Shown here: in pieces, positions 8,227-11,614 of the stretch
How the letters are laid out: each line of letters begins with the position of its first letter
Position numbering within the stretch: position 1 is the first letter of the stretch
Assembly (NCBI GenBank): GCA_012523545.1
Contig: JAAYIH010000042.1
Coordinates: 1-63,040, forward strand
Source: Bacillota bacterium
GTDB taxonomy: Bacteria; Bacillota; Proteinivoracia; UBA4975
Direction of reading: 5' to 3'
DNA: 63,040 nt
Program-made: the position numbers and the translations under genes
Notes under the pieces: model-generated
Told to the model about the DNA's origin: nothing
Databases searched by the model: none
What the model saw: only the letters and a program-made list of their open reading frames with translations

Positions 8227-9069
8227 GTGAGCAGCATAAAGGGAAAATTGTATATATGCCCTACTCCTCTGGGCAATTTAGAGGATATAACGCTGAGGGT
8301 GCTGAGGGTGCTGAAAGAAGCGGATTATGTGGCTGCCGAGGACACGCGGCGCACCCGTAAGCTGTTGAGCTATTACGATATTCATACGCCGGTGCTCAGT
8401 TTCCATCAGCACAGCAGCCAAAACCGGGTGCAAAAGCTGGTGGCCATGATATCGGCGGGCAAAAACATGGCTTTGGTCAGCGATGCCGGTACGCCCGGGA
8501 TTTCCGACCCCGGTCAGGCGCTGGTTGCTGCCTGCATAGCTGAGGGCATAGAAGTTGACCCTCTTCCCGGGCCGTGCGCCGCCATTGTTGCCTTGTCCGC
8601 CAGCGGTTATCCCTTGGCGTCCTTTACTTTTCAAGGGTTTTTGCCGCGCAAGGATCTGGACAAGGCAGTTGCGTCTCTGGCCGCCATAGAGCACCCGGTG
8701 GTTGTGTACGAATCCCCCCGGCGCATAGTGAAATTGTTGCGCAGCATAAATGAGTACATGCCCCAAAGGGAACTGGTGCTGGGCAGGGAATTAACCAAAA
8801 TCCATCAGCAAATTCTGCGCGGGACAGCCAGGGAACTGTTGCCGGCGCTGGAAGAGGGAGACCTGGAGCGGGGAGAATTTACGGTGGTTTTGGGACCATG
8901 GCGCAGCGAGGAGCCGTCGTGGTCGCCGTCAGAAGTTCTGGACCGGGTTCGGGCCCACGTGCTGGCGGGCGCATCCACCCGCGATGCCGTGGCGCTGGTC
9001 AGCGCTGAAATCAAACTGCCCCGCAGGCAGATATACGCCATCGTCAACAAGAGCAAGCAGGACCTGTAG
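8227..9069 (+). CDS. rsmI: 16S rRNA (cytidine1402-2'-O)-methyltransferase
   Basis: A SAM-dependent tetrapyrrole-methylase-fold enzyme of about 280 residues that methylates the ribose of C1402. Motifs are ICPTPLGNLEDITLR, AAEDTRRTRKLL, SDAGTPGISDPG and PLPGPCAA. The start is uncertain. GTG 8227 is used here but has no well-spaced ribosome site. GGGGTG followed six bases later by ATA (8236) is the spacing used by two other genes in this window, so a rare ATA start is possible. TTG 8203 has no ribosome site. Confidence 0.93.
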   Translation: MSSIKGKLYICPTPLGNLEDITLRVLRVLKEADYVAAEDTRRTRKLLSYYDIHTPVLSFHQHSSQNRVQKLVAMISAGKNMALVSDAGTPGISDPGQALVAACIAEGIEVDPLPGPCAAIVALSASGYPLASFTFQGFLPRKDLDKAVASLAAIEHPVVVYESPRRIVKLLRSINEYMPQRELVLGRELTKIHQQILRGTARELLPALEEGDLERGEFTVVLGPWRSEEPSWSPSEVLDRVRAHVLAGASTRDAVALVSAEIKLPRRQIYAIVNKSKQDL

Positions 9070-9119: not shown

Positions 9120-10850
9120 ATGGACAAACAAGTGCTGATCAGCGTCGGGCCCTTGAGCAGAAACAGTCAGTGGCACCTGTTGGCAGCCGATGCGCTGGCC
9201 AGGCTTAAGCGGCTGCTGGGAGATGATGTCCGTTTCCGGGCCCGGGACGCGGAATTCGCTCAGGTATTTAAGCTGGAGTACGACGGAGAGTCGCAGAATA
9301 TTGCGGGCCTGCAGTTTCTCAGCCAGTTAATATTCCGTTTGCAACAGTCAGGCAATGTCTACCTCAAGACAGCCAGGTGCCACGTATGCAAAGAGTGCGG
9401 CCACCCCTCGACCAGCCAGTCCTGTTCCTTTTGCGGCGGCGAACTGGAGCTGATGGAAAGGGACTGCTACTTTCTGCGCATACGCCGTCAGGCCGGGGCG
9501 ATAGAAACCATGTTGCGCTCCGACTTTGTACTGCCTGTACACAGCCGCAACGACCTGCTCAATCTCTGGAACAGTTACAGCGGTGATGACGTCCTGATGG
9601 CCCTGGCGGTTTCCAGAGGCGAGAAAGAGTACCTGCCGACAGAATGGCTGCAGGAATTGGCGGAAATACTGGCTGCGTGCAAATATTTCGGGGATGAGAA
9701 AGCTTTTCCCCGGTTGTGGCCCGAGGCCTACATTTTTATTGCCCGGGAATATGCCCACTACATTTTTTACTGGTGGGGAGTAATATCCTCTCTGCACCTG
9801 CCGCGGCCGGGCGGGCTGATATGCCATGCCGGCATGGAGTTCCTGGACAGAAAGGGCAATGCCGTCAGCCCGTTGCTCTTGGCCAAAAACTACGGCTACC
9901 AGGGACTCAGGTATTTTATGCTGGGTGCCAAAACAGGCGCCGGGGAAAACATTTTTGAAGAGGAAAAAGTAATTCAAAAGATTAACCTGGATTTGGCCAA
10001 TGAATTGGGCAACCTGGTTTCCCGTGTCATTGCCATGGTGTATCGCTTTGGGCAGGGGCTGGTGCCGGCGCCGGATATTTTAACCCGGCAGACTGAGGAT
10101 CTGGACTTGCGGGAAAGCGCCCTGGCGTTGCCTGGCAAGGTGAGGGCCAATATTGAAAACCAGGAGCTCCATTTGGCCGTCGCTGCCCTGAAAAACTTTA
10201 TCGGGAAAACCAACCGTTTCATTGAGGTTACCGGACCCTGGCAGCTGGCAGATTACCCCGAGGAGCAAGCGCGGCTGAATACAGTGTTATACAGCCTCTG
10301 TGAAGCGTTGCGGTTTTTGGCTGTGGCTTTGCAGCCATTATTGCCCGAGGCCTCCGGCAGCATTTTTCAGCAGTTGGGCATCGACGGCAACGGCGAGGTA
10401 ACTTCATGGCAATCCCTGGCCCGGTGGGGGATTATGCCTGTAGGCTCCAGGGTAACGGAGCAAACGGTCCTGTTCCCGCGCATTGTTCCCTATGGGGGGA
10501 CGGGGCCTGAGCACGAGCTGATCATGCGGGAAGAACTGGCCAGATTTAAAATAGTAGCTGCCCGGATTGTGTCGGCCGAGCTCCTCCCCGAGTATGAGGG
10601 TTATTACCAAATGATCTTATATGACGGCCGCCAGCGCTTTCGGGTGCTGGCCCCGGCGGCCCATTCCTATACGCCGGAATACCTGTCCGGAAAAAAGGTG
10701 GCGCTGATTGCCAACCTGCATCCCAAAAAAATTATGGATTACACCAGCGAAGGTGAAGTGCTGACAGTTGAAACAGAGACCGGCGCCCTGGACTTGCTGT
10801 TTTTGCCCGACGACTGCCCCGAAGGGAGCAAGATACTGTGCCTGAATTGA
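9120..10850 (+). CDS. Methionyl-tRNA synthetase-like protein lacking both catalytic signatures
   Basis: A 576-residue protein that follows bacterial MetRS from end to end. It has a Rossmann-type segment AADALARLKRLLGDDVRF (22-39), a zinc knuckle with cysteines near 87, 90, 93, 103 and 106, helical anticodon-binding features (NRFIEVTGPW) and a C-terminal OB-fold tRNA-binding domain (about 470-576, with KKVALIANLHPKKI). By alignment the ATP-binding HIGH is SRNS (13-16), KMSKS is EFLDR (240-244) and TDEHG is degenerate (RDAEF). Aminoacylation is therefore unlikely; tRNA binding may persist. It sits exactly where metS lies in Bacillus, before tatD. The reading frame is intact, so it is not simple decay. 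ATG 9120 has GGAGGT nine bases upstream; TTG 9117 is the alternative. A true MetRS must exist elsewhere. Confidence 0.85.
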   Translation: MDKQVLISVGPLSRNSQWHLLAADALARLKRLLGDDVRFRARDAEFAQVFKLEYDGESQNIAGLQFLSQLIFRLQQSGNVYLKTARCHVCKECGHPSTSQSCSFCGGELELMERDCYFLRIRRQAGAIETMLRSDFVLPVHSRNDLLNLWNSYSGDDVLMALAVSRGEKEYLPTEWLQELAEILAACKYFGDEKAFPRLWPEAYIFIAREYAHYIFYWWGVISSLHLPRPGGLICHAGMEFLDRKGNAVSPLLLAKNYGYQGLRYFMLGAKTGAGENIFEEEKVIQKINLDLANELGNLVSRVIAMVYRFGQGLVPAPDILTRQTEDLDLRESALALPGKVRANIENQELHLAVAALKNFIGKTNRFIEVTGPWQLADYPEEQARLNTVLYSLCEALRFLAVALQPLLPEASGSIFQQLGIDGNGEVTSWQSLARWGIMPVGSRVTEQTVLFPRIVPYGGTGPEHELIMREELARFKIVAARIVSAELLPEYEGYYQMILYDGRQRFRVLAPAAHSYTPEYLSGKKVALIANLHPKKIMDYTSEGEVLTVETETGALDLLFLPDDCPEGSKILCLN

Positions 10851-11614
10851 TTGACACCCACGTCCATTTGGACGACGCCAGACTTATTAAGGACCTGGAT
10901 CTGATTTTGGCCCGGGCCCGGGAAAAGGGCGTTACAAAGATGATCAACATTGGCCACGATATGGAATCCAGCCGTTCCTCGGTGCATCTTGCCCGGACTT
11001 ACGGCAACATTTGGGCCGCTGTGGGTATTCACCCCCATTCTGCCCGGGATGCGCGGGAAGCGGATTTTCATCTGCTGGAGGAACTGGCCCGCGAGGACAA
11101 GGTAGTCGCTATAGGGGAGATTGGTCTGGATTACCATTATGATTTTTCTCCCCGGCCTGTTCAGCGGGAGGTCTTCCAACGGCAGCTGGAAATGTCGATA
11201 CGCTTAGGCTTGCCGGTGGTAATCCATCAGCGGGAAGCGGTCCGGGATACCCTGGACATCTTGCAGGAGTATGCCCCTCTCCCGTACGGCGGCGTAATGC
11301 ACTGTTTTTCCGGCACGGTGGATATCATGGAACAGTGCCTGGAGCTGGGTTTGGTCATTGGCCTGGGCGGTACCGTGACCTTTAAAAATGCCCGTGAAAC
11401 CAAGGCCGTAGCCGCCGCCGTCCCCCTGGACAAGCTGGTACTGGAGACAGACTGTCCCTACTTGGCGCCCCACCCATTCAGGGGCAAAGTCAATCAGCCG
11501 GGATACCTGCCTCTGGTGGCCGCGGAAATCGCCCGCCTCAAGGGGGTACCCCTGGACCGGCTTATAGCTGCCTGTGCCGCCACTGCCAGGAACCTGTTCC
11601 AATTGCCCGCATAA
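10838..11614 (+). CDS. tatD: TatD family metal-dependent hydrolase
   Basis: A 258-residue TIM-barrel hydrolase with the metal ligands IDTHVHLDD (N-terminus), GEIGLDYHYD, the HQR and HCFSG histidines, and ETDCPYLAPHP. TatD proteins are 3'-5' DNA/RNA exonucleases. GTG 10838 follows GAAGGGAGC and overlaps the upstream gene by 13 bases, so its expression is tied to the MetRS-like gene. It corresponds to yabD. Confidence 0.94.
   Translation: MPELIDTHVHLDDARLIKDLDLILARAREKGVTKMINIGHDMESSRSSVHLARTYGNIWAAVGIHPHSARDAREADFHLLEELAREDKVVAIGEIGLDYHYDFSPRPVQREVFQRQLEMSIRLGLPVVIHQREAVRDTLDILQEYAPLPYGGVMHCFSGTVDIMEQCLELGLVIGLGGTVTFKNARETKAVAAAVPLDKLVLETDCPYLAPHPFRGKVNQPGYLPLVAAEIARLKGVPLDRLIAACAATARNLFQLPA

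Follow-up and report, generated by a model that had tools for sequence, protein, structure and literature searches.

Can a methionyl-tRNA synthetase (MetRS) that has lost its catalytic motifs be maintained in the place of the original enzyme, and what might such a protein still do? This question is raised by a gene at positions 9120..10850 (forward strand) of the window, i.e., the whole stretch of 63,040 nucleotides that was analysed, which comes from a Bacillota order represented almost exclusively by metagenomic data. The gene encodes a 576-amino-acid homologue of type-1 MetRS, here called dead MetRS1 with reference to its lost motifs. The resident enzyme has been replaced, its catalytic motifs have disappeared, and the protein has been retained across the order under purifying selection, with a degree of conservation that differs from domain to domain.

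The gene at the metS locus and its product

The reading frame starts with ATG at 9120, ends with TGA at 10848-10850 and contains no stop among its 576 codons. It is preceded by a GGAGG ribosome site, and the ribosome sites of this gene are conserved across relatives. The upstream neighbour is rsmI (8227..9069, forward strand), encoding a 16S rRNA methyltransferase, which occupies the same position in relatives; downstream lies tatD (10838..11614, forward strand), again in a gene order found in relatives. As tatD starts with GTG at 10838, and thus overlaps the 3' end of the dead MetRS1 gene by 13 nt, the translational coupling proposed in an earlier sequence-only reading of the window is plausible.

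In profile searches, the protein matches PRK12267 (E 8e-74), PF09334 (1.6e-13), tRNA_bind (5.8e-10) and Anticodon_3, the PRK12267 score of 249 bits being below the NCBIfam equivalog cut-off of 598. The closest solved structures, as judged by sequence match to the PDB (5e-43), are type-1 MetRS. Moreover, an AlphaFold2 model built from 16 sequences (mean pLDDT 87.6, pTM 0.76) finds its best fold matches in the MetRS of M. tuberculosis and S. aureus (E about 1e-30; TM about 0.67 by query and 0.73-0.78 by target), the fold match to MetRS1 structures having E 4.5e-30. Homology to MetRS is certain, and the reading frame, profiles and fold match bear out the earlier view of an unbroken 576-codon homologue that is collinear with MetRS over its whole length. 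With type-1 MetRS (MetS/MetG, PRK12267; S. aureus 4qrd/7wpi, M. tuberculosis 6ax8), the protein shares this collinearity, the fold, a Cys4 knuckle, the anticodon triad, the OB domain and the rsmI-tatD locus. In contrast to type-1 MetRS, it lacks HIGH, TDEHG, the Met/ATP pocket and KMSKS, is about 60 amino acids shorter, has a changed OB pocket and carries a new loop. The dead proteins of the order are acidic (pI 5.2-5.8), as are live MetRS.

Losses and conservation along the protein

The seven full-length dead proteins were compared with 20 live MetRS1 at columns at least 90% conserved in the live set; a column was counted as lost or kept when this held in 7/7 dead proteins, and the remaining columns are kept in some. 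In what is left of the Rossmann/CP catalytic domain (residues 1-245; 9120..9854, forward strand), 71 such columns are lost and 12 kept. HIGH is absent in all seven proteins. Its place (9156..9167) had been read as SRNS; the motif is missing under either placement of the adjoining 6-residue deletion, but the exact correspondence with SRNS requires that deletion to be placed just upstream. KMSKS is likewise absent in 7/7, its place (9837..9851) being taken by EFLDR, as proposed earlier, or by KILDR-type sequences in relatives. TDEHG is gone too, although it aligns to DAEFA rather than to RDAEF as had been claimed, and the aromatic and His positions of the Met pocket have disappeared with it, so that no ATP or amino-acid motif survives. 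The destruction of the catalytic motifs is shared by all seven full-length proteins found in the order, including the one in the window. What remains invariant in the Rossmann part, namely A23, D24, R28, G34, P139, W200, W218, P230 and the Cys4 zinc-type knuckle C90-C93-C102-C105 (9387..9434; 7/7), is mainly structural. Judging from sequence, it is near certain that the protein is a non-catalytic MetRS1 derivative that was kept after replacement of the enzyme.

A different pattern is seen in the stem-contact and anticodon-binding helical domain (residues 246-462; 9855..10505, forward strand), the most conserved part of the protein, in which 33 live-conserved columns are kept and 6 lost; in the AlphaFold2 model, its pLDDT is mostly >90. 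N298 and R302 (10011..10025) and W374 (10239..10241) correspond to E. coli N391, R395 and W461, respectively, which are base-specific readers of the Met anticodon (PMC10535265 Table 4). The triad is present in 7/7 dead proteins; together with the zinc cysteines, the anticodon-helix features have thus persisted, as the earlier reading stated. Since about half of the conserved columns in this domain (about 54%) stay in any case, survival of all three residues by chance is possible (probability about 0.16), and the triad alone is weak proof. The decisive point is the domain-wide contrast in conservation.

The same domain contains an invariant loop from P316 to V341 (10065..10142, forward strand) that follows the family motif P-x-P-[ND]-[IV]-LTR-x(3)-DL-[DE]-LRE-x-AL-x(2)-P. 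The motif holds a 2-residue insertion relative to live MetRS1 and is absent among the live sequences listed; the column of L321 is a gap in 20/20 of them. Given the topology of the surrounding model helices (281-310, 325-346, 350-371 and 380-404), the loop and W374 would share one end of the bundle, which would place the loop near the anticodon site. Such a conserved, family-specific loop suggests an additional partner.

The C-terminal Trbp/EMAPII-type OB domain (residues 478-571; 10551..10832, forward strand; PF01588, E 5.8e-10) is modelled with pLDDT blocks mostly at 78-93, and 9 of its live-conserved columns are lost and 9 kept. The pocket residues of Trbp111 were placed on the MetRS1 alignment by motif spacing, and we take the positions so obtained to be equivalent. 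The EMAPII-type OB fold is shared with Trbp111, CsaA and Arc1p; these proteins grip the terminal CA of tRNA with residues of the type K33, R75, F78, S82 and M85 of Trbp111, and the OB domains of MetRS are known to dimerise (PMC11286949). Live MetRS1 have S82 and M85 in 20/20 sequences, mostly Arg at position 78, and Lys at K33 among the sequences listed. In the dead proteins, the Met that stacks on A76 (M85) is replaced by Glu in 7/7 (E546; 10755..10757), position 78 is Glu, Asp, Gln or Met (7/7), the Lys of K33 is lost in 7/7 (mostly Gly, R in one), and S82 is kept in 4/7. R75 was dropped from the list of losses, as live MetRS1 lack it too. The charge of the OB domain is -6 to -9 in the dead proteins of family f1. 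Because the pocket residues are mostly gone, the domain probably does not hold the tRNA 3' end and probably serves dimerisation or protein contact. The fold of the 'tRNA-binding OB' described earlier is thus present, but most of its tRNA-contact residues are not; tRNA binding may be ascribed to the anticodon domain and its triad rather than to the C-terminus.

Distribution, descent and the second MetRS

Eight genomes of the order, from three families, were searched, and all contain dead MetRS1, always in the arrangement rsmI-X-tatD. The gene is an intact single frame in seven, and the eighth copy (G005) is split into two pieces by an N-run, with the frame open to either side of it. Among 84,980 species genomes scanned, the dead form turned up solely in UBA5496, UBA5509, UBA5286, AS09scLD_363, CSSed10_237R1 and UBA4975, all of them MAGs; as short peptide patterns were used, distant or independent dead MetRS1 could be missed. 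When 398 genomes of the phylum were searched with a dead-protein profile, the seven intact members scored >800 bits; the two parts of the G005 copy reached 380 and 321, and no sequence from outside the order exceeded 390 bits. Independent dead MetRS1 in other lineages were rejected, clear members occurring in this order alone in both the pattern scan and the 398 genomes, although independent losses that have diverged further would escape these searches. Seven Bacillota genomes (G019, G051, G052, G054, G127, G189 and G355) gave no match to the dead-protein/MetRS1 profile. In the rest of the class examined (family f4, G008-G012), MetRS1 has the length of the live enzyme, and live motifs are present in the four sequences read.

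In a maximum-likelihood tree of 35 proteins, the seven dead proteins group together (100/100) within MetRS1 and apart from MetRS2 (100/100); their exact sister is unsure because the dead branches are long. Tree, locus and domain order support a single origin from the resident metS. Among near relatives, the overall dN/dS of the gene (Nei-Gojobori) is 0.11, 0.10 and 0.09, with 0.15-0.16 for the catalytic remnant, 0.05-0.08 for the anticodon domain and about 0.08 for the OB domain; comparable values were obtained for MetRS2 (0.07-0.08), rsmI (0.08-0.14) and tatD (about 0.09-0.10). Therefore, the whole protein is constrained, its C-terminal two thirds most of all. The proposal of a non-catalytic paralogue under selection in the ancestral metS place agrees with the tree, in which 7/7 members of a single clade share the same losses, and with the locus and dN/dS.

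A working MetRS had been predicted elsewhere in the genome, and a second MetRS, of type 2 and with HLGH, was indeed found in 8/8 genomes of the order, although it is partial in two. In the genome of the window, it lies on contig C34, whose end cuts the frame after 177 codons (fragment and preceding T-box with AUG specifier at L001:1-531 and 572-788, both reverse strand). A family search of this genome gave no further piece, so the absence of the 3' portion is attributed to a gap in the assembly. MetRS2 comprises 547-550 amino acids in six of the other seven genomes and is broken by an N-run in the seventh (G002). The MetRS2 of the order carry the signatures HLGH and KLSTS and have no OB domain; T-box leaders above the Rfam threshold, with specifier AUG, precede them in 7/7 loci tested. 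Besides dead MetRS1, PF01588 domains occur in the order only in a long frame taken as PheT and in one CsaA-like protein, G006 being the sole genome with a free CsaA/Trbp-like OB protein (110-amino-acid frame; L059, G006:C76:9340-9627).

In the f4 genome G011, a live-type MetRS1 is accompanied by a MetRS2 whose sister group is the MetRS2 of the order. MetRS1 and an OB-less MetRS2 coexist in G011, G158 and G033 (L127/L134, L131 and L135, respectively); the coexisting MetRS2 carry a K[IF]STS-type signature for KMSKS, and in G158 the simple patterns gave no match. Two genomes of family f126 (G353 and G392) have a MetRS2 of the same OB-less type, 54-55% identical to that of the order, and profile and locus searches found no full MetRS1 in either. 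There, rsmI and tatD are separated by 340-500 nt (L155:2283-2784 and L152:1098-1441) without any sizeable ORF; hence MetRS1 is absent rather than kept dead. Thus, MetRS1 can be lost after the same replacement, and its retention in the order is not forced by the operon. G353 has a free OB protein of 117 amino acids, and no PF01588 domain was found in G392, a genome that is 72% complete.

Candidate roles of the retained protein

It is proposed that the lineage acquired a second, T-box-regulated type-2 MetRS, whereupon the resident type-1 enzyme would have lost catalysis before the order diversified and have been retained as a non-catalytic protein. Most likely, dead MetRS1 still grips CAU-anticodon tRNAs by the anticodon arm; the candidate targets are elongator and initiator tRNA-Met and perhaps tRNA-Ile2 before lysidine. 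The tRNA 3' end would no longer be handled, either by an active site or by the OB pocket, and the protein might act as a tRNA-Met-binding accessory, i.e., as a buffer, an escort or a complex partner. Points against this reading are the weakness of the triad as proof, the acidic character of the protein (shared, however, by live MetRS), the negative charge of the OB domain in f1, and the family-specific loop with its hint of a further partner. While binding of CAU tRNAs through the anticodon arm is likely, the reading as a whole, a non-catalytic tRNA-Met accessory, has about an even chance of being correct. More tentative still, and somewhat less probable than not, is the idea of a 'reader without a writer', a dedicated, non-catalytic CAU-anticodon binder that would govern what happens to tRNA-Met, tRNA-fMet or unmodified tRNA-Ile2.

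Alternatively, dead MetRS1 may have left tRNA-Met and now bind another RNA or a protein (mRNA, rRNA or an assembly partner) via the helix bundle of the anticodon domain together with the new, family-specific and invariant LTR...DLELRE loop. The OB pocket remodelled with Glu would fit such a change, but the anticodon triad and its helix are invariant, and this explanation is considered unlikely. The neighbouring rsmI, ksgA and rnmV act on rRNA; they were nevertheless rejected as a functional clue, since this set of neighbours goes back to the ancestral metS operon, is found with live enzymes too, and so says little about the role. Slightly less probable again is that dead MetRS1 serves the OB-less MetRS2 as a subunit, structural or tRNA-binding, comparable to Arc1p/Trbp or to PheRS beta. 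The latter combines a dead synthetase core with an EMAPII OB, as dead MetRS1 does, and is the partner of a live subunit, albeit in an obligate class II tetramer. Such a role would suit a MetRS2 of 547-550 amino acids in an order with few other PF01588 domains, and MetRS dimerises via OB interfaces (PMC11286949). An OB supplied in trans seemed attractive at first; it is weakened by the loss of the 3'-CA pocket and by family f126, which runs the same OB-less MetRS2 without MetRS1 and, in G392, without any PF01588 domain found.

It is improbable that the old fold now houses an enzyme with a different chemistry. MetRS-derived proteins outside translation do exist, such as the MetRS-like domains of PyrN and Spb40, which form N-N bonds, but these are ATP-dependent enzymes that activate amino acids and are paired with a cupin (PMC8664883), whereas dead MetRS1 retains no such motif and its invariant Rossmann residues are mainly structural. 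Least credible of all is a slowly decaying pseudogene or an assembly error: although its branches are longer than those of live MetRS1 and, at long distance, it is less conserved than rsmI, tatD and MetRS2, the gene is intact in seven independent genomes with dN/dS about 0.1, shows identical losses everywhere and has conserved ribosome sites, and this explanation was rejected.

Few synthetase paralogues without catalysis are known, most of them of class II; HisZ and PoxA/GenX, both class II paralogues, are analogies only. To our knowledge, dead MetRS1, if correctly interpreted, is the first non-catalytic MetRS paralogue fixed order-wide in the place of the original enzyme; a literature search found neither such a paralogue in bacteria nor class I pseudo-synthetases. 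HisZ, a HisRS paralogue that regulates HisG, has likewise kept its fold without catalysis and acquired a new job, but it functions in histidine synthesis and does not bind a tRNA anticodon; MetRS is nowhere mentioned in a review of duplicated synthetases (PMC9437257). In the present case, one can establish in which order the enzyme was replaced, catalysis was lost and the protein was retained, and what a synthetase does besides aminoacylation becomes testable on one protein, with natural controls in the live sister families (G008-G012), the genome with both copies (G011) and the MetRS1-less G353 and G392.
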